This document shows positions 233 to 17,926 of a stretch of 64,000 nucleotides of DNA, piece after piece. Numbering within the stretch: position 1 is the stretch's first letter; the number at the start of each line of letters is the position of its first letter. The translations under genes and the position numbers were made by a program. Below the pieces are notes generated by a model. The model searched no databases, had not been told where the DNA came from, and saw nothing but the letters and a program-made list of their open reading frames with translations. The stretch is from the NCBI RefSeq assembly GCF_027214025.1, contig NZ_JAPWHB010000008.1, forward strand, positions 1-64,000, in the 5' to 3' direction. Origin of the DNA: Parahoeflea alexandrii (GTDB lineage Bacteria > Pseudomonadota > Alphaproteobacteria > Rhizobiales > Rhizobiaceae).

Positions 233-937
233 TCAGTGACCGAAATAGGCCTTCGTCAGCTCCGGATCCGAGCGCAGTTGCTCGGGCGTGCCGCTGACGC
301 GCAGTGACCCCGTCTCCAGAACGTGAATTTCCTGAGCAAGGCTCAGGGCGAAATTGACGTTCTGCTCGGCGATCACCACCGTCAGGCCCATCTCCTGATT
401 GAGCCGCTTGAGCGCCCTGGCGATGCCGTCACAGATTTTTGGCGCGAGGCCGATCGTCGGTTCATCGACCAGCAGGATTTTCGGGTCGCTCATCAGTGCC
501 CTGCCAAGGGACACCATCTGCCGTTCGCCGCCACTCTGGGTCGCGGTTTCCTGAGCCCAGCGATCCTTGAGCACCGGAAACAGGTCATGCACCTGTTCGA
601 GCTTCTCCTCGATGGTCTCGCGCGCCGTGAAGGCGCCGACAAGCAGGTTCTCGCGTACGCTCATATAGGGAAACAGATGCGCGCGTTCCGGCGCATAGCC
701 AACCCCCAGGCGCACGATGTCGGAAGTGTCGAGCCTGGTTGTTTCCTGGCCGGCAACCTTGATCGAGCCGGTGTTTTCCACCAGTCCCATGATGGAATCC
801 ATCAAGGTCGATTTGCCGGCGCCATTCGGTCCGATAATGCCGACGATAGAGCCTTCCTCCACCGAAAGGCTGATGCCGTGCAGCGATTTCGCCATGCCGT
901 ACCGGGCGTGCAGGTCGGTGATTTCGAGAAGCGCCAT
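233..937 (-). CDS. livF: Branched-chain-amino-acid-type ABC transporter ATPase (LivF family)
   Basis: 234 residues, the normal length for LivF. Walker A GPNGAGKST is at residues 36-44, an ABC signature (QSGGERQ) lies near residue 136, and Walker B ILLVDEP follows. It is a cytoplasmic ATPase that would pair with the LivG-type ATPase encoded just upstream and power the LivH/LivM permease. It is the last gene of the leftward operon, 11 bp after livG. The family transports amino acids, short amides, urea and other small ligands. Because the operon also carries a microcompartment and glutamylation genes, the ligand here is probably an amine or amine derivative (inference), not necessarily a branched-chain amino acid. 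Confidence 0.93.
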   Translation of the reverse strand: MALLEITDLHARYGMAKSLHGISLSVEEGSIVGIIGPNGAGKSTLMDSIMGLVENTGSIKVAGQETTRLDTSDIVRLGVGYAPERAHLFPYMSVRENLLVGAFTARETIEEKLEQVHDLFPVLKDRWAQETATQSGGERQMVSLGRALMSDPKILLVDEPTIGLAPKICDGIARALKRLNQEMGLTVVIAEQNVNFALSLAQEIHVLETGSLRVSGTPEQLRSDPELTKAYFGH

Positions 938-948
938 TGTGTCCTGCC

Positions 949-1677
949 CTACTGTCCGAGATAGGCGGAGCGGACCGCCTCGTCATCCATCACCTCGATG
1001 AAGCTGCCTTCCGCGATTGCCCTGCCGAACGTCATCGCCACAGCGCGGTCGACCAGCGGCTCGAGCGCGCGAAGATCATGGCTGACGATGATGTAGGTCA
1101 GGCCTTCCTTGCGCTTCTGCGCAAGCAGATCCGAAATCTGCTCGATCTCGCCAACCGTCAGTCCGGCAAAGACTTCGTCCAGCAGCATGATTTCGGGTTT
1201 GGCGGCCAGCGTTCTTGCCAGTTCCAGTTTCCGCAGGTCACCCATCGAGAGTTCGCTGGGTTTGCGCAACAGGTCCTCGTCGCGGAAACCGACGCTGCGG
1301 GCAATGGTCAGTTCTGCGTCGGGGTCGGCGCTTTGCGTGATCATCTTCCACAGATTGTCGGGCATCATGCCGACGCGAATGTTGCCCGCCACATCCATTT
1401 CCGAGAAAGGCCGCGGCACCTGATAGGTCCGGGCGACGCCCTTCTGGATGCGCTTGTGGGTCGGCAGGTGCGAGATTTCCTCGCCATTCAATTTGATCGT
1501 ACCGGAGTTTTGCCGGTGTTCGCCCATGATCAGGCTGAAGATGGTGGTCTTGCCGGCGCCGTTGGGTCCGATCAGCGCCAGCGATTCCCCCCGATCGACG
1601 TGGAAGCTCAACCCGTTGGTGGCGACGATGCCGCCGAACCGCTTGACCACCTTGTCGAGGACCAGAAGACTAGACAT
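949..1677 (-). CDS. livG: Branched-chain-amino-acid-type ABC transporter ATPase (LivG family)
   Basis: 242 residues with Walker A GPNGAGKTT near residue 38, a slightly altered signature (LSMGDLRKLELARTL) and Walker B IMLLDEVFAGL. LivG proteins usually have about 250 residues, so it is full length. Its start codon overlaps the end of the livM-type permease gene by 8 bp, indicating translational coupling. It would form the ATPase pair with the LivF-type protein at the inner face of the membrane. Nothing looks broken. Confidence 0.93.
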   Translation of the reverse strand: MSSLLVLDKVVKRFGGIVATNGLSFHVDRGESLALIGPNGAGKTTIFSLIMGEHRQNSGTIKLNGEEISHLPTHKRIQKGVARTYQVPRPFSEMDVAGNIRVGMMPDNLWKMITQSADPDAELTIARSVGFRDEDLLRKPSELSMGDLRKLELARTLAAKPEIMLLDEVFAGLTVGEIEQISDLLAQKRKEGLTYIIVSHDLRALEPLVDRAVAMTFGRAIAEGSFIEVMDDEAVRSAYLGQ

Positions 1678-2623
1678 TTCCGGACCTCCCGGTTTGCGGG
1701 CCGCGGGTGCGCAGGCTGAGGTTTTTGAGGATCTGCATGATGCCTTTGGGCTGGTAGACGTAAAGCACCAGGGCGATCATTCCGTAGACGAGGTAGCGCT
1801 CGCTTCCCGGCAGCAGGGGCCGGAGATATTCGAGCAGGAACGTCATGAAGAAGGCGCCCATGATTGGCCCGATTATGGTTGCGGAGCCGCCAATCAGAAC
1901 GGATACGATGATCGTGAAGACGAAATTGATGTCGAACAACGCCCTTGGCGCGATCGAGCCGAGATAGTGGACATAAAAAGCGCCGCCGAGACCCGCCACC
2001 AAGGCGCTGACCATGAATGCGAACAGCTTGAGCCTGGTGGTGTTGAGCCCACTGCCGCTGACCGCCTCCTCGTTCATCGAGATGGCGTCGAGTGCAGTGC
2101 CGAGCCGTGTGCGCGATAAAAGCCACAGGGCAAGCCCGATCGCGAACATCAGGCCGAAGGACAGATAGAAATTGGGCGCGGCCCCCGACAGGATGGTCTT
2201 GATGCCGGAAATGCCCCTTGTTCCGCCGGTCAGGTCCGGCCGGATCACCTGAACGAGCTGGTACATGAGCTCCATGAAGGCGAGCGTTACCAGTGCGAAA
2301 TAGGTACCCTTGATCCTCAGTGCCGGAAGGAAGAACAGAGTTCCGCCAACCATGGTCGCCAGCACCGCGAGCGGGATCGACAGCGACACCGGCATTCCGA
2401 AACGATAGGACAGGATCGCCGATGTGTAGGCGCCGATGCCGATGAGGAAGGGATGGCCGAAACTGATGTAGCCGGTTTTTCCGGAGATGAAGTCCCAGCT
2501 CATCGCAAAGATGGCGAGGAAATTGGCGAAGATGATGATGCGCAATGTTCCATTGCTGACGAACTGCGGCAGCAGCAGCATTGCGACGGCAAAAATTGCC
2601 CAGCCGAGAAGTGGACGCGCCAT
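1670..2623 (-). CDS. livM: Branched-chain-amino-acid-type ABC transporter permease (LivM family)
   Basis: 317 residues, hydrophobic, with about 8-9 predicted membrane segments. It carries the LivM hallmark GHPFLIGIGAYTSA region and the later SALVAGLGGAFYVHYLGSI segment. I chose the ATG at 2623: it overlaps the stop of the preceding livH-type gene as TAATG, and the protein then starts MARPLLGWAIF directly with the first membrane helix. The longer in-frame extension upstream is arginine/histidine-rich shadow sequence of livH. It forms the translocation pore with the LivH-type permease. Confidence 0.92.
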   Translation of the reverse strand: MARPLLGWAIFAVAMLLLPQFVSNGTLRIIIFANFLAIFAMSWDFISGKTGYISFGHPFLIGIGAYTSAILSYRFGMPVSLSIPLAVLATMVGGTLFFLPALRIKGTYFALVTLAFMELMYQLVQVIRPDLTGGTRGISGIKTILSGAAPNFYLSFGLMFAIGLALWLLSRTRLGTALDAISMNEEAVSGSGLNTTRLKLFAFMVSALVAGLGGAFYVHYLGSIAPRALFDINFVFTIIVSVLIGGSATIIGPIMGAFFMTFLLEYLRPLLPGSERYLVYGMIALVLYVYQPKGIMQILKNLSLRTRGPQTGRSGNV

Positions 2624-3474
2624 TACAGATCTCCCCGACCGAAGAGGCCCTGCGGCCGGATCACCAGAACGCCGATGATCAGAAGCATGGTGAACACGCC
2701 GCGCAGCTCGGCGGCGATGAAGGTGGTGGTGATGATTTCCATGAAACCGATGATGTGCGCCACGATCAGCGTGCCGACGATGCTGCCGATCCCGCCGACA
2801 ATGACCACGGCCACCGCGATGATCAGCGGTGCCACCCACATCGACGGATTGAGCTGGGTGTAGGAGGCAAAGAACACTCCGGCCACGGATCCGAGCGCGC
2901 CGGAGATTGCCCAGGTCATCATGTTGACCCGATCGGTGTTAATGCCGGAAATCCGTGCGCCCTTGGCATCCATCGAGACCGCCTGCATCGCCCGGCCGAC
3001 ATGGGTCTTCTTGACGAACAGCAGCAGTCCGCCAAGGATGATCCAGCTTGCAACCATGGCGACCAGGATGTTGTTGGTGATGGTGGTGCTGCCGATGCGC
3101 CAGACGCCGCCGACAATCGGATGGAGGATCTTGGAGCTGTCGTTGAACACCAGAACGACACCCGCCTGAATGACGACGGCGAGAATGAGTGTCGAGATCT
3201 CGACGGCGACCTGATCGCCCTTCAGCCGCTTGACCAGCAGCCGGTACATCAGAACACCGGCGAGCGCGCCCATGCCGGTGGCAAACAGGAACCCCGGCAG
3301 TTTCGGCATGCCGAGCGTCTGGACACTGTAGAAATAGGCGTAGCCGCCAAGCATCAGATACGCGCCGTAGGCAAGATTGAGGACCCGGCCGACACTGAAG
3401 ATCAGGGTGAAGCCAACCGCGATCAGGGCGTACAAACCGCTCAGGAGAAAGCCTTGGATAAGGACTTGCAGCAT
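2623..3474 (-). CDS. livH: Branched-chain-amino-acid-type ABC transporter permease (LivH family)
   Basis: 283 residues starting MLQVLIQGFLLSGLYALIAV, the usual LivH opening helix, with about 8 membrane segments and the conserved RVLNLAYGAYLMLGGY and FGRGDL tail. It is separated from the upstream substrate-binding-protein gene by a strong hairpin at 3508-3543, a common arrangement that gives more binding protein than permease. The Shine-Dalgarno sequence before the ATG is weak. It pairs with the LivM-type permease. Confidence 0.92.
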   Translation of the reverse strand: MLQVLIQGFLLSGLYALIAVGFTLIFSVGRVLNLAYGAYLMLGGYAYFYSVQTLGMPKLPGFLFATGMGALAGVLMYRLLVKRLKGDQVAVEISTLILAVVIQAGVVLVFNDSSKILHPIVGGVWRIGSTTITNNILVAMVASWIILGGLLLFVKKTHVGRAMQAVSMDAKGARISGINTDRVNMMTWAISGALGSVAGVFFASYTQLNPSMWVAPLIIAVAVVIVGGIGSIVGTLIVAHIIGFMEIITTTFIAAELRGVFTMLLIIGVLVIRPQGLFGRGDL

Positions 3475-3556: not shown

Positions 3557-4864
3557 TTACTTCTTGACCCAGGAGGGGACCTGGAACTCGCCGTTGGCAT
3601 ATTTCGGCGGATAGACCACTTTCGAGCTGCCGTCCTCGTACCATTGCACCACCACCATTGACGGCGCGCCGTCATCATAGGGAGGGGTGATGTCGAAGCG
3701 CAGGTTGTGCGGGTATGTCCGTCCTGTGCGTTCCTCGGTCTCTCCTGGCTTCCAGAAGCCGTAGCGCATCCACAACTCGCCGTCCTTTTCGAGGATCAGG
3801 TCCTGGTTCTCCATTGCCGGAACCCATTTGTCGAGGCCGAAGCCACCGGCTTCCTCGGCGGCGGCGAATGCCTGCTTGACGCCGAAATAGGCGTTGAAGC
3901 CGTTGAAATGCGGGTATTTCGGCCGTTCTGAACCGTATTTTGCGACATATTTGTCGGCGAATGCCTGCGAGACCGGATCAAGCGAGAAGCCGACCGACGG
4001 CACAGGGCTGAGCGTCGAGATACCACCGCCAGACCCGCCCGTGTCTTCCCAGTATTCCTGGCCCAGGGCTGCGACATTGACCCCGGTCATGGCCAGCGGA
4101 ACCTGCTGCTTGACATATTGCGAGGAGACGACTTGGCTGTTGACCGAGGAGATGATGTAGATGAAGTCCGCGCCGCTTTCGACCGCTCGGCTGAAGATCG
4201 GCGAGAAATCGACAGTCGCGGGATCGTAGACGATGGTGTCGACCACTTCGATGCCTGCTTCCGGCGCCAGCAGCCCAGTGACGAGCCCGTTGATGGCGCC
4301 GCCGAAAGCCGTGTCCTCCTGCAGGATGACGGTCTTCTTCCATCCCATCTTCCCGGCCAGAATGTCCTTGCCGAAATCGACATAAAGCGTGGCCAGCGCC
4401 TCGTCGGAGGCGACGTTCATGAAATACATCTTGTAGGAGTCGTAATCCTCGACAATCTTGTCGATGATCGTGATCGAGGAGGTCCAGGTGTCCAGCGTCG
4501 GGATCTTGTACTCGACCATCCGGGGCAGCCAGCCGAGCGAGACGTCGTCGACGTCGCCCGAAACGATGAATTCCACCTCCTCGGTTTCGGCGAGATACTC
4601 GTAAGCCTTGATGCCTTCGGTCACATCTTCGCCGGTATCGGCCTTGACCAGTTCGATGGTCTTGCCGCCGAGCACGCCGCCTGCAGAGTTGAGTTCTTCA
4701 ACGGCAATTTCGGCGCCGCGCAATGTGCTGCGTCCTGCATCCGAGGCGAAGGAGCCAATAAAGCCGATCTTCACGGTATCTGCTGCAAAGGCCAATGTGC
4801 TCATTGACATGCTCAGCGACAACGTAAGCGCTGCCAGTCCGGTTTTTACTGCTGACGTTTTCAT
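3557..4864 (-). CDS. Periplasmic substrate-binding protein of Liv-type ABC transporter
   Basis: 435 residues with a clear Sec signal peptide (Lys-rich start, hydrophobic Leu/Met/Ser core, cleavage after about residue 28 at AFA-A). The mature part begins DTVKIGFIGSFASDAGRSTL, the usual type I periplasmic-binding-protein opening. It is somewhat longer than classical LivK (about 370), as is common for amide/amine-binding relatives. The start ATG is preceded by GGGAG. It is the first transporter gene after RidA in the operon and is followed by the hairpin at 3508-3543. The ligand cannot be read from the sequence; context suggests a small amine or amino compound. Confidence 0.88.
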   Translation of the reverse strand: MKTSAVKTGLAALTLSLSMSMSTLAFAADTVKIGFIGSFASDAGRSTLRGAEIAVEELNSAGGVLGGKTIELVKADTGEDVTEGIKAYEYLAETEEVEFIVSGDVDDVSLGWLPRMVEYKIPTLDTWTSSITIIDKIVEDYDSYKMYFMNVASDEALATLYVDFGKDILAGKMGWKKTVILQEDTAFGGAINGLVTGLLAPEAGIEVVDTIVYDPATVDFSPIFSRAVESGADFIYIISSVNSQVVSSQYVKQQVPLAMTGVNVAALGQEYWEDTGGSGGGISTLSPVPSVGFSLDPVSQAFADKYVAKYGSERPKYPHFNGFNAYFGVKQAFAAAEEAGGFGLDKWVPAMENQDLILEKDGELWMRYGFWKPGETEERTGRTYPHNLRFDITPPYDDGAPSMVVVQWYEDGSSKVVYPPKYANGEFQVPSWVKK

Positions 4865-4949: not shown

Positions 4950-5348
4950 TCATTCCTCCCCGTCGAAAATGATTGCGTCGGCCTCGATCTCGATCATCAT
5001 GCCAGGTGTCGTCAGGCCGGCCTGGACACCGCTTGTCACCGGGTCTATGCCCTTGAAAATTTCGCCGTGGGCCTTGACGAAGCCACCGCCGCCTGCCGCC
5101 ATATCGGTCAGGAACGCGCGTGTGCGCACCACATGTCTCATTGATGCACCGACTTCCCTGAGAGCTTCCTCGATGCGTTTGAAGATGAAGATCGATTGCG
5201 CATAGGTGTCGCCCGGCGCGTGCAGCAATCCACTGGGCTCGATTGCGGTTGTGCCGGCCACGTACACAAACTGACCAACCCGTTTGACGCGCGCATAAGA
5301 GCCGATCTCTTCGAAACGTCCGCCGGATTTGATCGTTTGCACCCGCAT
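4950..5348 (-). CDS. RidA/YjgF/YER057c-family imine/enamine deaminase
   Basis: 132 residues. The order VGQFVYVAGTTAI, the VVRTRAFLTD segment with the conserved ligand-binding Arg, and the C-terminal EIEADAIIFD strand match the RidA family. I chose the ATG at 5348, giving the usual RidA length; the longer in-frame form is shadow sequence of the dehydrogenase gene upstream. RidA proteins hydrolyse reactive imines and enamines released by amine-oxidising or PLP enzymes. Its position 2 bp after the MDH-like gene, in an operon with an opine-dehydrogenase-like gene, fits hydrolysis of an imine intermediate to aldehyde or ketone plus amine (inference). There is no N-terminal extension that would suggest encapsulation. 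Confidence 0.88.
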   Translation of the reverse strand: MRVQTIKSGGRFEEIGSYARVKRVGQFVYVAGTTAIEPSGLLHAPGDTYAQSIFIFKRIEEALREVGASMRHVVRTRAFLTDMAAGGGGFVKAHGEIFKGIDPVTSGVQAGLTTPGMMIEIEADAIIFDGEE

Positions 5349-5350
5349 GA

Positions 5351-6541
5351 TCAGACCCCGAGCCGTTTCTTGATCGCGTCCGCCGCGGCCTTCAATGCCG
5401 CCAGCTCGTCCGGCGACAGCGTCAATTCCTCGACCGAGACAATGCCGTTGATGCCGAGATGGCATGGCACGCCGAGCACCACACCTTCGATCCCGTACTC
5501 GCCGTCGAGCATCACCGAGACTGGAACTGCGCCGGCTTTCGCGCCCCGGATGTGTTCCACCAGTTCGATGGATGCATGGGCTGGCGCCAGTGTTGCCGAG
5601 CCAGTCTTGCGCAGGGCGACGACCTGTCCGCCGCCGGTGACCGCATCGCGCACGCACGCGTCGATCTGGTCCTTGGAGAGGTAGAGGGAAACCGGGCGGC
5701 CCTTGATCTTCGCCTTTGAAACGATGGGAGCCATTTCATCGCCGTGCGAGCCCAGCGTGATGGCTTCCACATCCGACGGATTCACATTTGCAGTGCGCGC
5801 GAGCGCGTTGCGAAAGCGGCTCGAGTCCAGGGTGCCGGCCATGCCGAGAACCTTTTCTCGCGGTAGCCCCGTCGCCTTGAGCATCTCGAAGGTCATTTCA
5901 TCAAGTGGGTTTGTGACCACGATGACAATGGCGTTTGGGGCGTGGGACCTGATGGCTTCGGCGGCGGACCGGATCACGCGTGCATTGATGTTTATGAGAT
6001 CGGACCGGCTCATTCCCGGAGAGCGTGCGCGTCCCGCCGTGACGATGACGACATCGCTTCCTGCAATGGCCGACAGCTCCATTCCACCGCTGGCTCTTGC
6101 CTTCGAGCCGTTGATTCCGCTGGCGTGGTTGAGGTCCATGGCGACCGACTCCGCCAGGCCCGGCACGATGTCGACGAGCGCGATCTCGTCGACCATGTCG
6201 CCATTGGCGGCGAGATGGGCGATGTTTGCACCGACGCCGCCAGCGCCGATCAACCCAAGCTTCTTCAGGCGTGTCGCCTTGCCGATGACCTTGCCTTTTC
6301 TCGGATCGATCCAGTGCGGTGACCGCCGGTAGAGGCCGCGCATCATTTGCTTGGATCCGTCGGTCCTGGCTATGGCGGGACGCTCCAGCGGACCATTGAG
6401 CAAGTTGATGCCAAGCCGGTGGGCAGTCTCCCGTGCCAGATCGGTGACGATATCTCCCGCCATGATCTCAAGTGCCTGCTTGCCGGCCCGTTGGGCCATG
6501 CTCACATGTTCGGCACCTATGACGCGGGACTGTCTGTTCAT
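5351..6541 (-). CDS. Malate/lactate-dehydrogenase-family protein with ~90-residue N-terminal extension
   Basis: 396 residues against the usual 310-320. The C-terminal 300 residues are an apparently intact NAD-dependent MDH/LDH fold: Rossmann GAGGVGANIA from about residue 99, substrate loop RSPGMSRSDL near 173-182, VTNPLDEMTF near 209-218, and the catalytic His in LGSHGDEM (His266). The extra residues 1-93 contain an amphipathic helix and the segment IVTDLARETAHRLGI (31-45), which resembles short helix motifs seen on BMC-associated enzymes. The start ATG overlaps the stop of the BMC-T gene as ATGA. I infer a lumen enzyme that may recycle NADH by reducing a 2-oxoacid. The substrate is not determined by the sequence. 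Confidence 0.83.
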   Translation of the reverse strand: MNRQSRVIGAEHVSMAQRAGKQALEIMAGDIVTDLARETAHRLGINLLNGPLERPAIARTDGSKQMMRGLYRRSPHWIDPRKGKVIGKATRLKKLGLIGAGGVGANIAHLAANGDMVDEIALVDIVPGLAESVAMDLNHASGINGSKARASGGMELSAIAGSDVVIVTAGRARSPGMSRSDLININARVIRSAAEAIRSHAPNAIVIVVTNPLDEMTFEMLKATGLPREKVLGMAGTLDSSRFRNALARTANVNPSDVEAITLGSHGDEMAPIVSKAKIKGRPVSLYLSKDQIDACVRDAVTGGGQVVALRKTGSATLAPAHASIELVEHIRGAKAGAVPVSVMLDGEYGIEGVVLGVPCHLGINGIVSVEELTLSPDELAALKAAADAIKKRLGV

Positions 6542-9791: not shown

Positions 9792-10100
9792 TTAATTCGC
9801 GGAACCGGCGCCAAGTGTCGCGATGATGGCCTCGAGTTCATCGTGGGGTCGCGGGATCACATGGACCGAAACCACTTCGCCGACCTTGTTCGCCGCCACT
9901 GCGCCTGCATCGGTCGCAGCCTTGACGGCGCCGACTTCGCCGCGGACCAGGATCGATACGAGACCACCGCCTGCCTTGGTCTGGCCGACTATGGTGACGC
10001 TGGCCGCCTTGACCATCGCGTCGGCGGCTTCGATCGCCGCCACCAGGCCGCGGGTTTCAATCATTCCCAAGGCCATCTGGCCACTCACAGGTTTTGCCAT
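9792..10100 (-). CDS. BMC-H: hexameric bacterial microcompartment shell protein
   Basis: 102 residues, a single BMC (Pfam00936-type) domain. The core reads [20 protein letters not shown], then [20 protein letters not shown] with the pore loop around AGGG, and [15 protein letters not shown], very close to PduA/CcmK/EutM hexamers. A short C-terminal tail follows [11 protein letters not shown]. It is translated immediately after the BMC-P gene (TGAGATG junction). As the only BMC-H in the window it would form most of the shell facets. The open Gly-rich pore is compatible with small polar metabolites. Confidence 0.95.
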
Positions 10101-10101: not shown

Positions 10102-10389
10102 TCAGTTTTTCCCTTTGCTGGAAGTTTTCAGGTCTATGTGATCGACGATCGCTATCGCGGCCATGTCCACGGGCAAGCCGCTGTTCTTGGCCGCCAGGCG
10201 GGCAGCGGAGCCTGAAACGAGCAGGACAAGATCGCCCGGCCCCGCCGAACAGGTGTCGGCGACAATCACCGCCTCTTCCTGGATGTTGCCCTCGGCATCC
10301 TCGATATTGGCCACGAGCAGGACCGCGCCGGATAGCTTTGGATCTTTCACGGTGGCGGTGACGGTTCCGGTGATGCGTCCGATTTTCAT
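10102..10389 (-). CDS. BMC-P: pentameric vertex shell protein (EutN/CcmL family)
   Basis: 95 residues, the typical EutN/CcmL length. The start [19 protein letters not shown], the middle [22 protein letters not shown] and the final AIVDHID strand match vertex pentamers. It follows the GS-like gene by 3 bp. With one BMC-H, one BMC-T and one BMC-P, the operon has exactly the minimum set needed to close an icosahedral shell. Confidence 0.95.
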
Positions 10390-10392: not shown

Positions 10393-11688
10393 TTAGAAAT
10401 TACCCATGTAGCGGTCGATCTCGACCTGGGTGACCTGGTTCCTGCGGAAGGCCAGTTCGCGTTCGGACTGCTGAATGTAGAGTTCGCACATGTCATCCCC
10501 CAAGACCGCTTTCATGAACTCGGACCCTCGTGCCAGCTCGATTGCGGCTCCGAGGTCGGTTGGAATCGGATCATGGCGCTCTTCCGAATAGGCATCGCCG
10601 GTGGTCATTTCGGTTGGCTCTATTTTCTGCTCGATGCCGTCGAGGCCGGCGGCGATGTCTGTGGCCAGAAGCAGGTACGGATTGCAGTCGGCGCCAGCAT
10701 CGCGCTTTTCGGTGCGCACCGCATTGTCGCTGCCTTCGATGATCCGGATCCCGACCGTCCGGTTGTCCGGGCCCCAGGAGGTGTTGATCGGGCAGAAGGT
10801 GTAGGGCTGGCGCCGCAGGAAGCCGTTCGGCGTCGCCGATCCGCACAAGGCGGTTTCGGCCATTCGCTTCTGCAGGCCGCCGACGAAATGGCGTCCCAGC
10901 TGGTTCAGCTTGCCGTCACTGGCGAAGGCGTTCCTGCCGTCGGCCCACAGCGAGTAGTGGGTGTGAAAGCCACTGCCGGACATCTCGAAGAACGGCTTGG
11001 GCATGAAGGTCGCAAGGTATCCGTGCGCGCTCGCCAGCTGCTTGACGAGGGAGCGGAACATGATCACGCGGTCGGCAGCCAGCAGCGCCTCGCCGTAGCG
11101 GATGTTCACCTCCACCTGTCCCGGCGCGTATTCCGGGTTGGACTGCTCGATCGGGATGCCGGCCTCGTTGATCTGCTGGCGGATCGGACCCAGCACATGC
11201 TCCATCTCGGCGGCGCGGGCCAGCGAGTAGACCTGAATGTCGTTGTCCTTGGGGCGGCGTGTCACCGGGTCAAGCAGGTAGAACTCCAGTTCGGTTCCGG
11301 CCTTGACCTCGTAGCCCATCCGTTTGGCGCGCTCGAGTTGCCTGATCAGCACGTTGCGTGGATCGATCGGAACGGGCTTGTGGTCCATTCCTTCGGCGCG
11401 GGCCATGCAGAATGCCACTCCGGGCTCCCAAGGCAGGGAAACCGGCTCGGAAACCGGAAACATGTGCATGTCCGGATAACCGTTGCCCATGTTCACATAA
11501 GGAGTGTCCCATATGTCGCATGTCATATCCAGCGCCAGCAAGGCGATGGAGAGGGCGTTGCCGCCCTCGCAAACCGCATCCCAGTGGGTTGCGGGAATGC
11601 GCTTGCCGCGCATTATGCCATTGAGATCGCCCATGCCCATGCAGACAGTGTGCGTGTCTTTTGGCAGCTTGAATTTTGTGCCGGCCAT
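10393..11688 (-). CDS. Glutamine-synthetase-family ligase (gamma-glutamylamide synthetase / GlnT type)
   Basis: 431 residues. It has the GS catalytic-domain elements: GTELEFYLLDP with the metal-binding Glu, FEMSGSGFHTHYSLW (equivalent to the GSGMHxHxS loop), the RTEKRDAGADCNPYLLLA segment, and the N-terminal beta-grasp part. Relatives include gamma-glutamylmethylamide synthetase and rhizobial GlnT. The adjacent N-methylglutamate-synthase-like operon makes ATP-dependent glutamylation of an alkylamine the most likely role (inference). I chose ATG 11688 (GGGGAAC upstream) over an in-frame extension that would run through the operator at 11728-11749. It is the first gene of the leftward BMC/liv operon. 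Confidence 0.85.
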   Translation of the reverse strand: MAGTKFKLPKDTHTVCMGMGDLNGIMRGKRIPATHWDAVCEGGNALSIALLALDMTCDIWDTPYVNMGNGYPDMHMFPVSEPVSLPWEPGVAFCMARAEGMDHKPVPIDPRNVLIRQLERAKRMGYEVKAGTELEFYLLDPVTRRPKDNDIQVYSLARAAEMEHVLGPIRQQINEAGIPIEQSNPEYAPGQVEVNIRYGEALLAADRVIMFRSLVKQLASAHGYLATFMPKPFFEMSGSGFHTHYSLWADGRNAFASDGKLNQLGRHFVGGLQKRMAETALCGSATPNGFLRRQPYTFCPINTSWGPDNRTVGIRIIEGSDNAVRTEKRDAGADCNPYLLLATDIAAGLDGIEQKIEPTEMTTGDAYSEERHDPIPTDLGAAIELARGSEFMKAVLGDDMCELYIQQSERELAFRRNQVTQVEIDRYMGNF

Positions 11689-11727
11689 TTTTTGTTCCCC
11701 GCAGAGCAGCCCTTGAAGATAGGCTGT

Positions 11728-11749
11728 ATACAGAATACAGTATGCAGAT
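11728..11749. promoter_or_regulatory. Candidate GntR operator between GS-like ligase and FAD oxidase genes
   Basis: The 22-bp site matches, in 20 positions, the reverse complement of a site at 17126-17147. The shared form starts ATACWGAATACAGTATRCAG. It contains the inverted motif CTGTATAC/GAATACAG typical of FCD-GntR operators. It sits 40 bp upstream of the GS-like start and 32 bp upstream of the divergent oxidase start, so it could control both. Confidence 0.7.
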
Positions 11750-11780
11750 AGTGAGGGCGAGTTCAAGGGGATTCTTCGTT

Positions 11781-12917
11781 ATGAGTGGCAACGCAATTGT
11801 AGTCGGCGGGGGTATCGCCGGAACCATGACCGCCCTCTCGCTCGCCAGACGGGGGATAAGAACCAGATTGATCGATCGCTGGGAGCCCGGACACTCGCGC
11901 GCTTCTTCAACCGATTACAACCGGGTCATCCGGTCCATCCATGGACGCGACGAATTCTATACCCGCTGGGCGCGGGAAGCACGGCTGCAATGGATGGAGC
12001 TTCAAGCTGAAACCGGTCAGAAGCTCTATTATGAGTGCGGCGCGCTGATCCTGGCGACGAAAGGCCATTGCGACTGGGAGGATGCGACTGCGGAAACGTT
12101 CACGAAACTGGGCGTTCCGTTCTACAAGTTTTCTCAAAATGAAGTGGCGGTACGGTTTCCGCAATTCGATGTGTCGAGCATTTCCTATGCTCTCTATGAA
12201 CCGGAGGCCGGGATGATCATGGCCCATCGCGGTGTGCTGGCCGGTATTGACCTGTTCCGGAAAGCCGGTGGTCGGGTCGAGCGCGGCCACGTGACGACCG
12301 ACAGCGACGAACGTCTGCTGCTCGACGGAAAGCCGCTCGAGGCGGATCTCATCGTCGTTGCAACCGGCGCCTGGATGGGCGAGATGTATCCCCGGACCAT
12401 CAAGCCCATCCTGAAGACGGTCGGCGTCAATGTGCTCTACACCTCGACGCCGGATGGAAGCACGGCCTTCGACCAAGAGGAAATGCCCTGCTGGATCGAC
12501 CACGGAGAGGGATCGTTCGGCCTGCCGTCGTGTGAAGGGTCGGGCGTCAAGGCGGCGGTCGTCATTCCGGACACGATCGATCTCGACAAGGATGAGCGGC
12601 TGGTCAGACGGGAAACACTCAACCGGACCCGCAGCTACATTCGCAAGCGCTTTCCTGGCCTCGTTGGACAGGCAGTGGTCGATTCGAAATTCAACCAGAT
12701 CAGCCTGACGCCGGACACCCATTTCATTGTCGACTGGCACCCCAAGCACAAGAATGTGCTGTTTGCCGGCGGATGCTCCGGCCACCTCTACAAGCATGGT
12801 CCGGTATTCGGTGACTTTGTCGCGGGCGTGGGCGTGAAGGATTATGACACCGCCGACCGGTTCAAGATTGCCGGCCGCCGCAAGCTGTCGCCAAAGGAAA
12901 GCCCGTCGGGCCGTTGA
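11781..12917 (+). CDS. FAD-dependent amine oxidase (SolA/sarcosine-oxidase/DAO family)
   Basis: 378 residues. An N-terminal dinucleotide-binding motif (VVGGGIAGTMTALSLARRG, about residues 7-25) is followed by the family's R-x-R-x-IDRWEPGHSRASSTDYNRVIRS stretch that holds the flavin, and a C-terminal FAGGCSGHLYKHGPVFGDF segment. Members of this family oxidise N-methyl amino acids, gamma-glutamylputrescine and related secondary amines. I chose ATG 11781 with AAGGGG upstream. It is divergent from the GS-like ligase across a shared operator. In the inferred pathway it could oxidise a gamma-glutamyl-amine or an N-alkylglutamate in place of the four-subunit NMG dehydrogenase, which is absent here. 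Confidence 0.82.
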   Translation: MSGNAIVVGGGIAGTMTALSLARRGIRTRLIDRWEPGHSRASSTDYNRVIRSIHGRDEFYTRWAREARLQWMELQAETGQKLYYECGALILATKGHCDWEDATAETFTKLGVPFYKFSQNEVAVRFPQFDVSSISYALYEPEAGMIMAHRGVLAGIDLFRKAGGRVERGHVTTDSDERLLLDGKPLEADLIVVATGAWMGEMYPRTIKPILKTVGVNVLYTSTPDGSTAFDQEEMPCWIDHGEGSFGLPSCEGSGVKAAVVIPDTIDLDKDERLVRRETLNRTRSYIRKRFPGLVGQAVVDSKFNQISLTPDTHFIVDWHPKHKNVLFAGGCSGHLYKHGPVFGDFVAGVGVKDYDTADRFKIAGRRKLSPKESPSGR

Positions 12918-12921: not shown

Positions 12922-13611
12922 TCAGCTGTCCGGCGCGTGGCTCTTGAAAAACGCGGCGACCCGGTCGGCAAAAAGGTCCGATTTCACGTTTGCCTGCTGC
13001 ATCGATTGGCGCGCTCTCGCGCCATCGGCGCCCGGGAGCTCATCGTCAATAAGGTCGATGACGTCTCCGACGAAGCTTGATCCATATTCTGGATGGAACT
13101 GCGTCGACATGGCAGGAAAGTCATAGGTCAGCGCGGCAATCGGACAATAGTCGGACGAGCCAGCCACTTTGCTGCCTGGCGGTACCCGCGTTACCTGATC
13201 TCCATGTAAAACGTATGCATCGAAGGTTTCGCCATCGACGCGGAATTGCCTGACGCCTGCGGCCCACATCTCCGCTTTCTCGGCCTTGCCGCCATAGGTA
13301 TCCGCCATCAACTGGTGACCGAAGCAGATGCCGTAGACCGGTTTGCCGGCAGCCCGTATGTCGAGCAACAGCGCGCGCATGGGCGCCATCCAGGCCGGTG
13401 AATCGTAAACGCCCAGTTCCGAGCCGGAAACGATGAACCCGTCAAAATCATGGACCGAGACCGTCGGCGCCCCATCCCCGATCGCGACGCGGATCAGCTC
13501 ATCGCCGATCAAATGCGGGGCGAGCCATTTGGTTATCATCGCAGCGATGGAATCATATTTCTCCAGAGCGGGCGACACCCAGGTGGCGCAGTCGAGAATG
13601 GCAATTCGCAT
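12922..13611 (-). CDS. Class I glutamine amidotransferase-like hydrolase
   Basis: 229 residues with an intact triad: nucleophile Cys96 in GICFGHQ, His173 and Glu175 in FHPEYG. It is a stand-alone GATase domain like the N-domain of GMP synthetase, with no synthetase domain. Enzymes of this fold include PuuD-like hydrolases that release glutamate from gamma-glutamyl compounds. Being last in the mgs-like operon (transcribed leftward) and next to a GS-like ligase and an amine oxidase, it is a candidate gamma-glutamyl hydrolase or ammonia donor (inference). It converges with the oxidase gene with only 4 bp between stops. Confidence 0.78.
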   Translation of the reverse strand: MRIAILDCATWVSPALEKYDSIAAMITKWLAPHLIGDELIRVAIGDGAPTVSVHDFDGFIVSGSELGVYDSPAWMAPMRALLLDIRAAGKPVYGICFGHQLMADTYGGKAEKAEMWAAGVRQFRVDGETFDAYVLHGDQVTRVPPGSKVAGSSDYCPIAALTYDFPAMSTQFHPEYGSSFVGDVIDLIDDELPGADGARARQSMQQANVKSDLFADRVAAFFKSHAPDS

Positions 13612-13658: not shown

Positions 13659-14024
13659 TCATTTTCCGTCTTTGGCCATTTCGTGGAACGTCCCTGCATT
13701 CGGGCAGAACTTGTCAGCCTCCGTGACCGGTCCGTCGCCGTGCAAGAAGCGCTGGCAGACCCTGGTTTCCGAGCAATGTCCGCAGGCCTTGGTCAGTTCC
13801 AGCGCTCGCCAGCGTTTTTCGTCGATTTCATCTTCCGTGATACCGAACCTGGCCGCCATTTCAACCAGCTGGGCCCGTGTTTCGGGGCGGTTTGACATGA
13901 ACGTCATCATTTCGTCGCGAGCCAGGCCGAGATCGCTCTCGGCGAGCGAATTCATGTTGCTCACGAAGTCACGGTCGCGCTGGTTCTCCAGCCATTGCTC
14001 GAAAATCCTCCTGAGTCTGTTCAC
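13659..14024 (-). CDS. DUF6455-family small Cys-containing protein
   Basis: 121 residues starting from GTG at 14024, which has GGGAGG seven bases upstream. The N-terminal half is a short helical region rich in Arg/Asp/Glu (LRRIFEQWLENQRDRDF), followed by a DUF6455-like domain with GITEDEIDEKRW, conserved Cys in CGHCSETRVCQRFL and a final FCPNAGTF. The Cys pattern could bind metal or a cluster. Function is unknown. It lies between the mgsC-like gene and the class I GATase, suggesting an accessory role for the Fe-S/flavin glutamate-synthase-like enzyme. Confidence 0.7.
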   Translation of the reverse strand: MNRLRRIFEQWLENQRDRDFVSNMNSLAESDLGLARDEMMTFMSNRPETRAQLVEMAARFGITEDEIDEKRWRALELTKACGHCSETRVCQRFLHGDGPVTEADKFCPNAGTFHEMAKDGK

Positions 14025-14064: not shown

Positions 14065-15486
14065 TTACCAGTCAAATGCCCGGTCGATGCCTGCCATCTT
14101 CACACCGGTGAAGGCTGAGGCCTGGAACGACAGCGCACGCAGGTCCTCCACCTCGAGATTGTGGACGGAAGACTTGCCGCAGGCCTTGGCCAATGCGGTG
14201 ATTTCCATGGTCATGGCAGTCAGATATCGCGCCACCCGCTCCGCGCCGGCATGAGGGTTCATGCGTTTTTCGAGCTCGGGATCCTGTGTCGCCACGCCCA
14301 CCGGGCAGCGGCCTGTGTGGCAGTGGTGGCATGCGCCCGGAGCCGTGCCAAGTGCTTCATAGTCCGCGAGATAGCGCGGCGAATTGCAGCCCAGTGCCAT
14401 CATGGCGGCATTGCCGATCATGACCGCGTCGGCACCGAGCGCCAGACATTTGGCTGCGTCGACCCCGGACCGGATGCCGCCTGCGGCAACCAGCGAGACC
14501 TTGCCGGTCATGCCGCATTCATCCAGCGCTTCCCTTGCCGCGCGGATGGCGCTCATGGTGGGAATTCCCGTGTGGTTCAGAAGCATTTCCGGGGATGCTC
14601 CTGTGCCGCCCTCGGCACCGTCGACAACGATCACGTCGGCCCCTGCCTTGGCGGCGATGGCCACATCGTAGCGCGGCCGCGTGGCACCCATCTTGATGAA
14701 GATCGGGACCTTGTAATTTGTCGCGATCCGGAGTTCCTCGATCTTGACCGCCATGTCGTCGGCGCCAAGAAAGTCCGGGTGACGAATGGTGGAGCGCTGG
14801 TCAACGCCCTGCGGAAGAGTGCGCATCCTGGAAACGCGTTCGCTGACTTTCATGCCAAGCAACAGGCCGCCCGTGCCGGGTTTGGCGCCCTGGCCGACAA
14901 CAATCTCGAGTGCATCCGCACGACGCAAATGGTCAAGATCGACGCCATAGCGGGCAGGGGACATCTGATAGAGCAGACGCTGGGATGCTTCGCGCTCTTC
15001 TTCGAGCATGCCGCCTTCGCCGGTGCAGGTCATGGTGCCGACCTTGGACGCGCCGAAGCCGAGTGCCGCCTTCGCGGAGGCGGAAAGGGCACCGAATGAC
15101 ATCGATGCAATGTATATCGGAATCTTGAGTTCCATCGGCTTTTCGACCAGGCCGCGGCCTCCGCCCAAAATGGTGGTGGTGTCACAACTCTCGCGATAGC
15201 CTTCGAGAGGCAGACGGGTCATCGTTGCCGGGACGAAGGTCAGATCGTCGAAGGTCGGCAATTGCTTGTTGAACGAATTGTAGCCGCGGACCTGATAGCG
15301 CCCGAGCTGTGCCAGGGCATGAACTTCGGCAATGGCATCGGGAGACCAGCGCGCCGACCCGCCTTCTTCGTAGGAAGATGGGACACCGGCGGGGCGTCCT
15401 TCGATGGCGCCGTCACCGAACTTGATCTCGGCTTCGCTCGCAGCCTCGAACGGGTATTCGTATGGAGTGTTCAGATCATGAGCCAT
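14065..15486 (-). CDS. mgsC: N-methylglutamate-synthase-type subunit C (glutamate synthase FMN/Fe-S domain; GlxD-like)
   Basis: 473 residues equivalent to the central FMN barrel of glutamate synthase: IYIASMSFGALSASAKAAL, KPGTGGLLLGMKVSERV, DVIVVDGAEGGTGASP, VAAGGIRSGVDAAKCLALGA. A cysteine set for a 3Fe-4S cluster is present (Cys386, Cys389, Cys394 in CHHCHTGRCPVGVATQ). In N-methylglutamate synthase this subunit transfers the amine onto a glutamate skeleton. The N-terminal amidotransferase and GXGXG domains are encoded separately just upstream, as in mgsABC/glxBCD. It overlaps mgsB by 16 bp. The amine specificity cannot be read from the sequence. Confidence 0.85.
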   Translation of the reverse strand: MAHDLNTPYEYPFEAASEAEIKFGDGAIEGRPAGVPSSYEEGGSARWSPDAIAEVHALAQLGRYQVRGYNSFNKQLPTFDDLTFVPATMTRLPLEGYRESCDTTTILGGGRGLVEKPMELKIPIYIASMSFGALSASAKAALGFGASKVGTMTCTGEGGMLEEEREASQRLLYQMSPARYGVDLDHLRRADALEIVVGQGAKPGTGGLLLGMKVSERVSRMRTLPQGVDQRSTIRHPDFLGADDMAVKIEELRIATNYKVPIFIKMGATRPRYDVAIAAKAGADVIVVDGAEGGTGASPEMLLNHTGIPTMSAIRAAREALDECGMTGKVSLVAAGGIRSGVDAAKCLALGADAVMIGNAAMMALGCNSPRYLADYEALGTAPGACHHCHTGRCPVGVATQDPELEKRMNPHAGAERVARYLTAMTMEITALAKACGKSSVHNLEVEDLRALSFQASAFTGVKMAGIDRAFDW

Positions 15487-16163
15487 GCGCTTGCATCCCT
15501 GCTTTCAAAATACCAAAGACGCTGACCCGAGATCATCTTGCGCCAGTTCCGCGACGAATCCACCAGGCCGAGGGGCTCGAGAATGGCGTCGACTTCGGCA
15601 ACCTCCTCCGCCGTCGGCTCGACAATGTTGACGTCGACGCCGAAGCTTGAGACCTCGCCCGCCACCCAGACCTCGCCCTGCCAGAGCGCGTCGGCGCAGC
15701 TGTCGCCGGCGCCGCCAAGGGCGATGATCTTTCCGGAATGGGCCATGAAGCCGGATTGGTACCCGATCTTGCCCTCGACGACGATATTGCCGCCCTTCAT
15801 GGCGACGCCGCAGCGCGGACCGGTGTCGCCCTTCACATGAATGGTGCCGCCGATCATGGCTGCGCCCACCGACATGCCTGCATAGCCTTCCACAGTGATC
15901 ATGCCCTTGGCCATGCCTTCGCCGAGCGCCCAGCCGGCATTGCGTTCGATGTGCAAGGTGGAACCGGTATTCAGGCCGCCGCAGAAATAGCCGACGCTGC
16001 CTTCGAACGTGATGTCGGCGCCATCAGGCAGGCCGACGCCAAGATTGTGCCGGGAAAGGGTGTTGACGACCCGTATCCTGTCGCCCTTCTTGCAGGCCTC
16101 CTGGATCTCCTCGTTGATTTCCCTGATGTGCCGTTTGCCGACTTCGATAACCGTCTCGCTCAT
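15471..16163 (-). CDS. mgsB: N-methylglutamate-synthase-type subunit B (GXGXG domain; GlxC-like)
   Basis: 230 residues consisting of the right-handed beta-helix found at the C-terminus of glutamate synthase. Repeats with Gly-x-x-x-Gly turns are visible (GYFCGGLNTGSTLHIERNAG, GYAGMSVGAAMIGGTIHVKG, GKIGYQSGFMAHSGKII). It is structural, positioning the amidotransferase and FMN subunits. The start ATG overlaps the stop of the mgsA-like gene (ATGA). Length fits the stand-alone subunit. Confidence 0.85.
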   Translation of the reverse strand: MSETVIEVGKRHIREINEEIQEACKKGDRIRVVNTLSRHNLGVGLPDGADITFEGSVGYFCGGLNTGSTLHIERNAGWALGEGMAKGMITVEGYAGMSVGAAMIGGTIHVKGDTGPRCGVAMKGGNIVVEGKIGYQSGFMAHSGKIIALGGAGDSCADALWQGEVWVAGEVSSFGVDVNIVEPTAEEVAEVDAILEPLGLVDSSRNWRKMISGQRLWYFESRDASAWLMI

Positions 16164-17104
16164 GCTGCAAGGCTCCGGTTTCCAACGCCCCAGATACCGG
16201 TGAGGGAAGGGCCGTCATAATTGATGACATCGCATTCATTCGGGAAAATCCGCCGCACGGCCTGCTCTTCGGTTGCCGCGGCAAGGTCGCCGTTCTGGTC
16301 GATCACGACCAGCGGCTTCATGGCAAAACGGTCCTTGGCAAAGCCAATTCCGTCGGGTCTTGCGATCATGAAGGTGAAGACGCCGTCGATGGAGGACACA
16401 GACTTTGTCAGTGCCTGTTGCACCGTCATTCCGGCCTTGATCTGGTCGGATACCCAGACCGCAATCAGCTCGCTGTCGTTTTCAGTGAGGAAGCGGTAGC
16501 CTTGGCGTTCCAGGTGCTTCTTCTGCGTGTAGTAGTCGGTGATCTGGCCATTGTGCACGATCGCCACGTCCGAAAACGGGCGCGCCCAGAAAGGGTGGCT
16601 GGCGTTTGGGAGCACCGAACTTTCGGTTGCCAGACGGGCATGACCAAGGCCATGCGTGCCGATCATGTCCCGCACCTTGTGCTTTTCGGCCACTTCGGCG
16701 GCGCCTCCGGTATCCTTGATAATCTCCAGGGTGCGGCCGCAGGACTGGATCTCGATCCGGTGCGATATCGCGTCGGCATCACGCACCCAGGCAACCAGAT
16801 CCTTCGGATCCCTGATTTCCATCCGGAAGCAGTAATGCTGTTCATGAGAGGTAACGATGTGCATATCGTCCATGAAGTCGGACCCGTGGTCGTGCAGGAT
16901 GTTCTTGAAATCATCCAGGTCAGCACTCATCGCCGACTTGTCGAAGCCCATCCCCCGGAGCACGTACCCTTCGTCGCGGGGCAGGCCATAGATCGCGAAG
17001 CCGGTGCTGTCGGCGCCTCGATGTTCCTGGGCATCCATCAATTCGACGAGATCGTTTCCAACTTTTCCCGGCGAAGTCAAAATCCGTCCTGCAATTCCGC
17101 ACAT
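16160..17104 (-). CDS. mgsA: N-methylglutamate-synthase-type subunit A (class II glutamine amidotransferase; GlxB-like)
   Basis: 314 residues beginning MCGIAGRIL, so Cys2 would be the N-terminal nucleophile after Met removal. Further class II GATase elements are HNGQITDYY, LTENDSELIAVWV and GVFTFMIARPDGIGFAKDR. It would release the amine or ammonia from a gamma-glutamyl amide and feed it to the FMN subunit. It is the first gene of the leftward operon; the 22-bp operator candidate lies 22 bp upstream of the ATG. The same order (amidotransferase, GXGXG, FMN domain) is known from mgsABC and rhizobial glx genes. Confidence 0.85.
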   Translation of the reverse strand: MCGIAGRILTSPGKVGNDLVELMDAQEHRGADSTGFAIYGLPRDEGYVLRGMGFDKSAMSADLDDFKNILHDHGSDFMDDMHIVTSHEQHYCFRMEIRDPKDLVAWVRDADAISHRIEIQSCGRTLEIIKDTGGAAEVAEKHKVRDMIGTHGLGHARLATESSVLPNASHPFWARPFSDVAIVHNGQITDYYTQKKHLERQGYRFLTENDSELIAVWVSDQIKAGMTVQQALTKSVSSIDGVFTFMIARPDGIGFAKDRFAMKPLVVIDQNGDLAAATEEQAVRRIFPNECDVINYDGPSLTGIWGVGNRSLAA

Positions 17105-17125
17105 GTCGAGTGTCTCCCGCGCTTA

Positions 17126-17147
17126 ATCTGTATACTGTATTCAGTAT
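17126..17147. promoter_or_regulatory. Candidate GntR operator upstream of mgsA-type gene
   Basis: This is the reverse-complement partner of the site at 11728-11749 (20 of 22 positions identical). It contains CTGTATAC followed by TATTCAG. It is placed just upstream of the leftward mgs-like operon and about 115 bp upstream of the divergent GntR gene. Confidence 0.7.
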
Positions 17148-17206
17148 CCACATTATCCGCAAGAGCCCATATGCGACGAATTTGCACTCCACATTGTTTT
17201 TTGCAT

Positions 17207-17216
17207 CCTGTATACG
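17207..17216. promoter_or_regulatory. Half-site of the GntR operator near the regulator gene
   Basis: CCTGTATACG repeats the CTGTATAC arm of the two full sites. It lies 44 bp upstream of the GntR start codon and could mediate autoregulation. Being only a half-site, it may be chance. Confidence 0.4.
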
Positions 17217-17260
17217 CGGTGCATCGGGACTTCAGAATTCAGGCAGCAAGGGAATGCCTT

Positions 17261-17926
17261 ATGGCATTGAAAAGCATTAAGCAGGATCGTCCGCGTCTGG
17301 CCGACATTGTTTACAACCAACTGCTCGAGGCTATCCGCAGCGGCGCCATTTCAGACGACGAGAGGCTCGTCCAGGAAAAGTTGGCCGAGGAAATGCAAAT
17401 CAGCCGTACACCGGTGCGTGAAGCATTGCTGAGGCTGGAACAGGAAGGCATTCTGGTTGTCGCTCAGCGCGGCGGGTTCAGGGTATACCGCATGTCGCGC
17501 GACGAGGTGCATGAGCTCTATCAGGCCCGCGCCGCGATTGAGGGGCAGGCCATGCGTGTCCTTGCAACCAATCCGGATGCGAAAAAAATTCAGGAATTGC
17601 GAAAGCTGATCGAGAAGGAGGAAAACATATCCTCTCCCTCGATCGATGCGTATTTCACGGCCAATCGCAATATTCACCGCAAGATCGTCGAGTTGTCGGA
17701 CAACCGTTATCTGCTCGAAATGTTCGACAACATCTGGAATCGCGGGGTTTCGTACAACCTGTTTGCCGCCATCGCCAAGATTGATCTGGCACAGTCCCTC
17801 GGCGATCACCTGAAACTGGTTGATGCAATTGAGACAGGGAACCCGATTGTTGCAATGGAAGCTATCGTGGACCACATCGCCCACGGCTTCGACCTGCAGA
17901 TCAAGGCGCTGGAAAGTAAGGGTTAG
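17261..17926 (+). CDS. GntR-family regulator, FadR/FCD subfamily
   Basis: 221 residues. The N-terminal winged helix-turn-helix (ADIVYNQLLEAIRSG, EKLAEEMQISRTPVREALLRL, GILVVAQRGGFRV; residues 12-75) is classic GntR. It is followed by an all-helical FCD ligand-binding domain with the DAYFTANRNIHRKIVEL metal-binding stretch. I chose ATG 17261 over an in-frame extension that would overlap the mgsA-type gene. It is divergent from the mgs-like operon, and sites matching its expected palindromic operator are found in front of both region A operons, so it is probably their ligand-released repressor (inference). Confidence 0.87.
   Translation: MALKSIKQDRPRLADIVYNQLLEAIRSGAISDDERLVQEKLAEEMQISRTPVREALLRLEQEGILVVAQRGGFRVYRMSRDEVHELYQARAAIEGQAMRVLATNPDAKKIQELRKLIEKEENISSPSIDAYFTANRNIHRKIVELSDNRYLLEMFDNIWNRGVSYNLFAAIAKIDLAQSLGDHLKLVDAIETGNPIVAMEAIVDHIAHGFDLQIKALESKG

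Follow-up and report, generated by a model that had tools for sequence, protein, structure and literature searches.

We report a bacterial microcompartment (BMC) locus in Parahoeflea alexandrii, located at the beginning of contig NZ_JAPWHB010000008.1 (assembly GCF_027214025.1). The window analysed here is the first 64 kb of this contig, which we call C67, in a genome of 5.5 Mb. With a confidence that lies slightly on the favourable side of even, we read the locus as a predicted metabolosome for the utilisation of amides or amines, in which glutamate acts as the carrier of the amine. Profile matches confirmed that a minimal shell, a CoA-acylating aldehyde dehydrogenase (ALDH), an opine-dehydrogenase-like protein, a malate-dehydrogenase (MDH)-like protein, RidA, a glutamine-synthetase (GS)-like ligase and a Liv importer stand in one row, which runs leftward from 11.7 kb on the minus strand, and that a second row holds subunits of the MgsABC/GlxBCD type together with a class I glutamine-amidotransferase (GATase); both rows had been recognised in an earlier note made from the sequence. 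The features of the locus are as follows.

233..937, minus strand: LivF-type ABC ATPase (translation, relatives compared)
949..1677, minus strand: LivG-type ABC ATPase (translation, relatives compared)
1670..2623, minus strand: LivM-type permease, ATG at 2623 (relatives compared)
2623..3474, minus strand: LivH-type permease (translation, relatives compared)
3557..4864, minus strand: LivK-type substrate-binding protein, livK (PF13458 1.9e-36)
4950..5348, minus strand: RidA-family imine/enamine deaminase, ridA (PF01042 2.5e-20)
5351..6541, minus strand: MDH-like NAD enzyme, mdh, with EutQ-like N-terminal extension at residues ~6-48 (PF00056/PF02866)
6538..7137, minus strand: BMC-T, bmcT, CcmP/CsoS1D type (PF00936; 5lsr 2e-46)
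7170..8549, minus strand: CoA-acylating aldehyde dehydrogenase, aldh, acetaldehyde type, catalytic Cys250 (TIGR02518 485.8 bits; 5j78 4.1e-126)
8549..9739, minus strand: opine-dehydrogenase-fold protein, odh, usual catalytic His absent (fold and residue comparison)
9792..10100, minus strand: BMC-H shell hexamer, bmcH, EutM-like (PF00936 8.6e-27)
10102..10389, minus strand: BMC-P shell pentamer, bmcP, EutN-type (PF03319 1.9e-24)
10393..11688, minus strand: GS-like glutamate-amine ligase, gs (PF00120 7.3e-91)
11715..11755, no strand: putative operator copies in the divergent gs/sol promoter (site at gs/sol in 58/59 loci)
11781..12917, plus strand: monomeric-sarcosine-oxidase-like FAD enzyme, sol (PF01266 1.9e-40; 1l9c 1.6e-32)
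12922..13611, minus strand: class I GATase-like protein, accessory (PF00117 8.5e-17; 28/62 loci)
13659..14024, minus strand: DUF6455 small Cys-containing protein, accessory (PF20056 9e-6; 15/62 loci)
14065..15486, minus strand: MgsC/GlxD-type FMN subunit, mgsC (PF01645 2.4e-99)
15471..16163, minus strand: MgsB/GlxC-type GXGXG subunit, mgsB (PF01493 1.9e-17)
16160..17104, minus strand: MgsA/GlxB-type class II amidotransferase subunit, mgsA (PF13522 1.2e-15)
17123..17150, no strand: putative operator in the mgsA/gntR intergenic region (18/18 match at 17130)
17261..17926, plus strand: GntR/FCD regulator, divergent from the mgs row (PF07729 1.7e-23; PF00392 2e-16)

A whole-genome search found no PF00936 match in the window's genome other than those of this locus.

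The gene content suggests a pathway of seven steps. Liv-type importers would bring in an N-substituted amide or an amine, and, where such an enzyme is present, an iron amidohydrolase of the dimethylformamidase type or an amidase-signature enzyme would release the amine, judging by homology. The GS-like ligase would use ATP to form a gamma-glutamyl-amine, as its homology and the loss of the ammonia flap suggest, and the MgsABC homologs would shift the amine onto the alpha-nitrogen and so yield an N-alkylglutamate. The FAD enzyme, whose active-site residues are conserved, may then oxidise the N-alkyl carbon, with RidA aiding hydrolysis of the imine to glutamate and an aldehyde, most likely acetaldehyde, which the acylating ALDH, presumed to lie inside the shell, would by homology convert to acyl-CoA. 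NADH may be re-oxidised, perhaps with oxaloacetate, by the MDH-like enzyme, which would be anchored to the shell through its EutQ-like N-terminus, and the GntR regulator with one operator would switch the parts together. The N-alkylglutamate route is known for methylamine and would here be adapted to a larger amine. The order amine, gamma-glutamyl-amine, N-alkylglutamate, aldehyde and acyl-CoA had been put forward in the earlier note and fits our results; its opine-dehydrogenase-like oxidation step is not supported. That the aldehyde comes from an N-substituted glutamate and not from a lyase or aldolase, with glutamate as a recyclable handle that delivers environmental amines, split off from N-substituted amides after import, to a shell forming acyl-CoA, a rebuilt opine-dehydrogenase-fold cargo protein and a EutQ-anchored MDH-like enzyme, is in our estimate evenly poised.

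The opine-dehydrogenase-like protein was used as the query against one genome per species, covering 84,980 species, and 62 loci were recovered; the scan relied on exact peptides of this one protein, so that distant relatives are missed. Carriers were found among the Alphaproteobacteria (Rhizobiaceae, Roseobacteraceae/Paracoccaceae, Geminicoccaceae and others) and the Gammaproteobacteria (Granulosicoccaceae, Chromatiales, Arenicellales and Thiotrichaceae), many of the genera being, we presume, marine. Flanks were long enough on either side in 33 of 62 loci, and these without exception contain sol, gs, bmcP, bmcH, odh, aldh, bmcT, mdh and ridA (33/33), followed by livK (28/33), mgsA (21/33) and mgsC (20/33). 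When all 62 loci are counted, also those with cut ends, the values are lower than in the flanked set (gs 58, bmcT 57, mdh 54, mgsC 34). The locus is a conserved gene unit. In the ALDH tree of 54 rows the two classes are intermixed, with Phaeobacter locus L065 grouping with Thiotrichaceae locus L081 (support 98/93), and because this mixing of Alpha- and Gammaproteobacteria is supported, transfer of the locus between lineages is probable. Gene-content counts take in all 62 scan loci, while four loci that duplicate genome contigs (L026, L028, L034 and L041) were omitted from operator, identity and residue counts. Two alignments of the opine-dehydrogenase-like protein were used, one of 60 rows with duplicates and partial sequences removed and one of the window with 45 of 64 odh rows; the livK alignment comprised the window with 26 of 45 livK rows, and that of the MDH-like N-terminus the window with 33 of 54 rows. 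Inserted and flanking genes of the relatives' loci, considered as substrate clues, were short-chain dehydrogenases, transposon-like open reading frames (ORFs) and unrelated genes, and gave no clear hint; in one locus (L049:14957-18004) ORFs judged by eye to be transposase-like are wedged between ridA and livK.

In the GS-like protein, Glu133, Glu135, Glu186, Glu193, His242 and Glu327 are kept in every row that has a letter at these positions. The Glu of the flap, to which the portion of PMC7948447 drawn on here assigns a role in ammonia binding, is replaced by Phe298 in 63/63. Because this residue is lost, the protein is likely an amine ligase, in agreement with the earlier assignment. The position of Asp177 in RhGmaS, placed by motif spacing, is taken by Asn184 in 62/62 proteins; the substrate may therefore not be a simple alkylamine, and the protein is not simply a GmaS. 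The acylating ALDH keeps its catalytic Cys250 in 62/62. Its nearest solved structure is 5j78, an acetylating acetaldehyde dehydrogenase, and its best NCBIfam model is the acetaldehyde type TIGR02518, although the score of 485.8 bits lies under the equivalog cut-off; the SauS sulfoacetaldehyde model reached 308 bits. Acetaldehyde is favoured because of this ALDH type, and ethylamine with it, so that ethylamine or an N-ethyl amide is our favourite substrate, a tentative and still doubtful choice. RhGmaS accepts ethylamine with a Km of 58 uM (PMC7948447) and dimethylformamidase hydrolyses N-ethylformamide (PMC7686228), and as far as the sections of the two papers used here go, this makes such chemistry plausible for the locus by analogy. 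It is a real possibility, if short of probable, that the same carrier pathway and shell serve another amine, such as ethanolamine, aminopropanol, a taurine-like compound or a diamine, and hence yield another aldehyde and acyl-CoA. The GS-like pocket with Asn184, unlike that of GmaS, and the TIGR02518 score next to the SauS match speak for it, while the relationship of the ALDH to 5j78 and its top-ranking acetaldehyde model speak against it.

For oxidation of the N-alkylglutamate, either the opine-dehydrogenase-like protein or an FAD oxidase had been proposed. Compared with monomeric sarcosine oxidase (MSOX), the FAD enzyme keeps Arg49 (60/61), Arg52 (60/61), Lys265 (61/61) and Lys348 (61/61), residues that we take to serve amino-acid carboxylate binding and oxygen activation; the column of Cys315, presumably the covalent-FAD residue, is not conserved (Asn 55/61, Cys 4/61). 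The opine-dehydrogenase-like protein certainly has the opine dehydrogenase fold. In the column of 1bg6 His202, set by sequence alignment, Glu occurs in 44/46 rows and Asp in 2/46, and in the region of 1bg6 Asp297, where the column is one residue off register, Asp occurs in 25/46 and Cys in 19/46, including the window; we assume that His202 and Asp297 are the catalytic residues of opine dehydrogenase. Since the opine-dehydrogenase-fold protein lacks the usual catalytic His, the FAD enzyme appears to be the better candidate for the N-alkylglutamate dealkylase, and only the FAD half of the earlier proposal is supported. The N-terminus of the opine-dehydrogenase-fold protein, a short helix (5-14) with a flexible linker, has the shape of an encapsulation peptide, and the protein is probably a cargo with re-tooled chemistry. 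It is unlikely, in our judgement, that it cleaves the N-alkylglutamate with NAD(P) inside the shell, releasing the aldehyde in the lumen and leaving the FAD enzyme a secondary role. The His column is Glu or Asp in 46/46, the Asp297 region, read one residue off register, varies, and with a mean pairwise identity of 0.57 the protein is among the faster evolving ones of the locus (ALDH 0.79, FAD enzyme 0.74; bmcP is lower at 0.54). Opine dehydrogenase chemistry as the main step was lowered in rank on account of the His missing from all 46 rows.

The MDH-like enzyme keeps Asp124, Arg173, Arg179, Arg242 and His266 in 55/55 rows. Its N-terminal segment is conserved, and ~43 residues match EutQ 2-45 (18.4 bits, i-E 5.9e-7); this match was found among ten Eut proteins tested, with EutQ picked in advance as the expected partner, and the next best of the ten scored 0.5 bits, and within the window's genome the segment is unique to the mdh gene. 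According to the part of PMC12487888 available here, EutQ 1-99 links shell and cargo, and helices H1/H2 contact the shell. The MDH-like enzyme is thus predicted to carry a EutQ-like, shell-binding N-terminus, which would be a new feature. For the ALDH, no encapsulation tail was seen in the 15 rows whose termini were examined (every fourth row).

The class I GATase adjoins the GS-like ligase and the FAD oxidase, a grouping of GATase, GS-like enzyme and FAD oxidase that puuABCD also has. In a Puu-like route the gamma-glutamyl-amine would be oxidised directly and the GATase would remove glutamate, with MgsABC employed elsewhere. We consider this quite improbable: the GATase occurs in 28/62 loci and has a mean identity of 0.47, whereas MgsC has the highest conservation (0.89) among the 13 proteins compared and accompanies the shell in nearly all genomes searched, as detailed below. 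The Puu-like route was lowered because of the weak conservation of the GATase. The MgsABC-type subunits are intact at the positions inspected, with the N-terminal Cys2 of MgsA kept in 32/32 and the Fe-S Cys of MgsC in 37/37, which bears out their earlier assignment.

The Mgs module is tied to the shell by co-occurrence. In a sample of 297 genomes from the order to which the window belongs, the opine-dehydrogenase-like protein is found in nine, and BMC-type MgsC (at least 856 bits, 79-100% identity to the window's) in exactly the same nine, which come from six genera and are thus not fully independent. The next best MgsC relative scored 543.5 bits, and the remainder have at most 59% identity to the window's MgsC; MgsC of the BMC loci forms a separate clade of its own. 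BMC-type MgsC is present in 28/29 carrier genomes searched (14/14 and 14/15), counting unlinked cases on another contig or ~109 kb off, the sole miss being the metagenome-assembled genome of L029. One BMC-type mgsC carries an in-frame TAG (G114:C653:699-2117, locus L146; genome 71% complete).

The two rows also have a putative operator in common, GNATACTGTATWCAGNAT, which matches at 15 or more of 18 positions in 58/59 gs/sol intergenic regions and precedes mgsA in 31/32 cases, including the window; at 14 or more of 18 it lies upstream of livK in 29/43 relatives. Four matches occurred in 0.67 Mb of Markov sequence, and the loci hold 114 further matches in 1.17 Mb outside the two promoters, part of which fall at livK or in promoters of genes that were not placed. 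In the genome-wide scan at no more than one mismatch, sites were found in 7/8 carrier genomes, and none in any of the eight with the reversed-pattern control. Every one of these sites lies at a locus promoter, even where the promoters are separated by 109 kb or by a contig boundary, with the exception of G000:C6:23020 in the window's own genome. Eight mgs regions that are distant from the shell operon or placed on a different contig were also inspected, and in 7/8, all but L184, a site (at least 14) precedes mgsA. The GntR/FCD protein probably reads the operator, and the sequence pattern suggests that one putative operator switches both operons together. That both operons share an operator-like site and belong together, as claimed earlier, was upheld in the window and across relatives by the shared site and by the distribution of MgsC. 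A chance adjacency of the operons, with the shell handling an unrelated aldehyde, is hardly credible and was rejected on the co-occurrence and the common operator: about a third of the flanked loci do lack linked mgs genes (mgsA 21/33), but such carriers, where searched, hold mgs elsewhere in the same genome, still with the operator in 4/5 of the upstream regions read (L180-L183, but not L184).

The extra operator, G000:C6:23020, ends 23 bp before the gene of a second Liv-type binding protein, and the operon continues to a DMFA2_C protein (PF20254, 6.3e-101). This protein aligns with Paracoccus dimethylformamidase 6lvb at 1.3e-180 over residues 4-758 of 769 and, counted from that alignment, keeps Tyr399, Tyr440, Glu521, His519 and Glu657. 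The part of PMC7686228 used here gives Tyr399, Tyr440 and Glu521 as Fe ligands and also lists His519 and Glu657. The extra operator would point to amide use. A tail-to-tail arrangement of the DMFA2 operon with livF was observed for Hoeflea poritis (G299), Nitratireductor XY-223 (G300) and G307, the closest relative found; Phaeobacter marinintestinus (G303) has the operon next to gntR-mgs. A stretch of 36 bp separates the last ORF of the DMFA2 operon from the end of contig C6 in the window's genome, and C67 begins 232 bp past livF, from which we infer that C6 and C67 adjoin. An operator precedes the DMFA2 operon in G307 and G181 too, and of the DMFA2 copies in the 297 genomes, the best three (at least 67%) all fall within the nine carriers. 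No small-subunit gene was recognised in the DMFA2 operon, where no specific search was made for it. Amidase-signature enzymes (PF01425) lie 33-34 bp past livF in two loci (L047:19539-20978, L065:19512-20936) and form another type of amide hydrolase at this end of the locus; such cases are consistent with the use of amides, though small in number. The LivK sequence gives no indication of a particular ligand. In several carriers the gene after the DMFA2-like one encodes a LuxR-type regulator (L020:19514-20533, L208:11559-12476; GerE 5e-14 in L020), and its counterpart in the window's genome is shorter and has no Pfam match.

Several observations weigh against the amide/amine reading. The metabolosome core is incomplete: PduL-type phosphotransacylase (PTAC; PF06130) was found in 0/8 carrier genomes, with the control positive in 2/14 and EutD-type not searched genome-wide, and neither EutD nor PduL is among the window ORFs examined. 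The absence of PTAC that had been noted earlier thus holds within this scope, and the acceptor for NADH and the release of CoA are weak points of the model. On the FAD enzyme we noticed nothing like a targeting extension; the aldehyde would thus form outside the shell, contrary to the usual logic, and with Asn184 in the ligase the amine may be other than a simple alkylamine. The upstream region of the window's livK has no operator, and sites with one mismatch or fewer are absent from genome G298. As to amides, no operator precedes the DMFA2 operon in G299, G300 and G303; among 15 carrier genomes, six have a DMFA2 copy of at least 64%, two have distant copies only and seven have none; and the close copy in G304 showed no connection with the locus. 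Some DMFA2 relative at E of 1e-100 or below occurs in 52/297 genomes. At one mismatch or fewer, the genome-wide scan taken alone is compatible with a single chance operator in each genome. Dimethylformamidase is inactive on acetamide and barely active when the carbonyl carbon is substituted, according to the excerpted portion of PMC7686228.

The locus resembles three known systems in part. With the N-methylglutamate pathway (gmaS, mgsABC, mgdABCD) it has in common a GS-like ligase and MgsABC-type subunits, followed by an enzyme of the sarcosine-oxidase family, to which we take mgd to be related. It differs in that a monomeric oxidase replaces mgdABCD, and an acylating ALDH and a shell follow; mgdABCD was not among the window ORFs examined, where a monomeric DAO enzyme stands instead, and no genome-wide search was made for it. 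Furthermore, the BMC MgsC forms its own clade, and the GS-like protein has at most 38% identity to paralogues in 14 carrier genomes. With the ethanolamine (EUT) microcompartment it shares a EutM-like BMC-H, a EutN-type BMC-P, an acetaldehyde-type acylating ALDH and a EutQ-type N-terminus; in contrast, no EutBC, EutD, PduL or EutG was found among the window ORFs examined, and the EutQ-like segment is fused to the MDH-like enzyme. With the Paracoccus N,N-dimethylformamidase, as described in the part of PMC7686228 used here, the DMFA2 relative has a near full-length match and the Fe ligands in common, whereas it belongs to a microcompartment regulon.

Incomplete-core metabolosomes, in the accessible portions of Axen 2014 and Sutter 2021, likewise combine shell genes and AldDh without PTAC. 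An enzyme of the lactate/malate dehydrogenase type is given by the consulted part of Axen 2014 as the predicted NAD recycler in PVM and a candidate in MIC1. Glutamine synthetase and opine are unmentioned in the main texts of Axen 2014 and Sutter 2021 (PMC8217296), whose locus diagrams sit in the supplement, and the main text of Sutter 2021 contains no 'glutam', 'amine' or 'ligase'. Since the 2020 data set may well include carriers such as Ruegeria, the locus may be listed there under a MIC number without a function, possibly as one of MIC2-7. In the open-access literature, no paper linking a microcompartment with the N-alkylglutamate pathway was found among the matches listed; PMC12180729, in its indexed text, mentions microcompartment and methylglutamate in separate places.

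The window as a whole has zero Rfam matches at the gathering score, and no tRNA genes were found in it. A 178-aa ORF at 18113-18649 has a LysR substrate-binding domain (5.9e-20) and no helix-turn-helix match, and is a probable regulator remnant. A separate catabolic cluster at 19170-36747 contains an FAA hydrolase, a zinc dehydrogenase, an extradiol-dioxygenase-like protein, an IclR regulator, a TRAP transporter (DctP/DctM), an FAD monooxygenase-type protein, a sulfatase, a BKACE beta-keto acid cleavage enzyme, an acyl-CoA dehydrogenase and MmgE/PrpD; a link of this cluster to the shell was sought by the operator scan alone.

Many catalogued metabolosomes have an ALDH and no obvious aldehyde-producing enzyme, as stated in the part of PMC8217296 used here, and the locus offers a concrete candidate for the aldehyde source, an N-alkylglutamate. 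The regulon is compact, with two or three promoters and, in some carriers, the amide-hydrolase operon, and isolates exist in the carrier genera Ruegeria, Sulfitobacter and Hoeflea. The predicted function would be a new job for microcompartments, of a class not described in the papers searched. If it is true, microcompartments would be tied to the turnover of amines and amides and would acquire a glutamate-carrier logic, and the locus would illustrate how metabolosome loci can manage without the usual signature enzyme.

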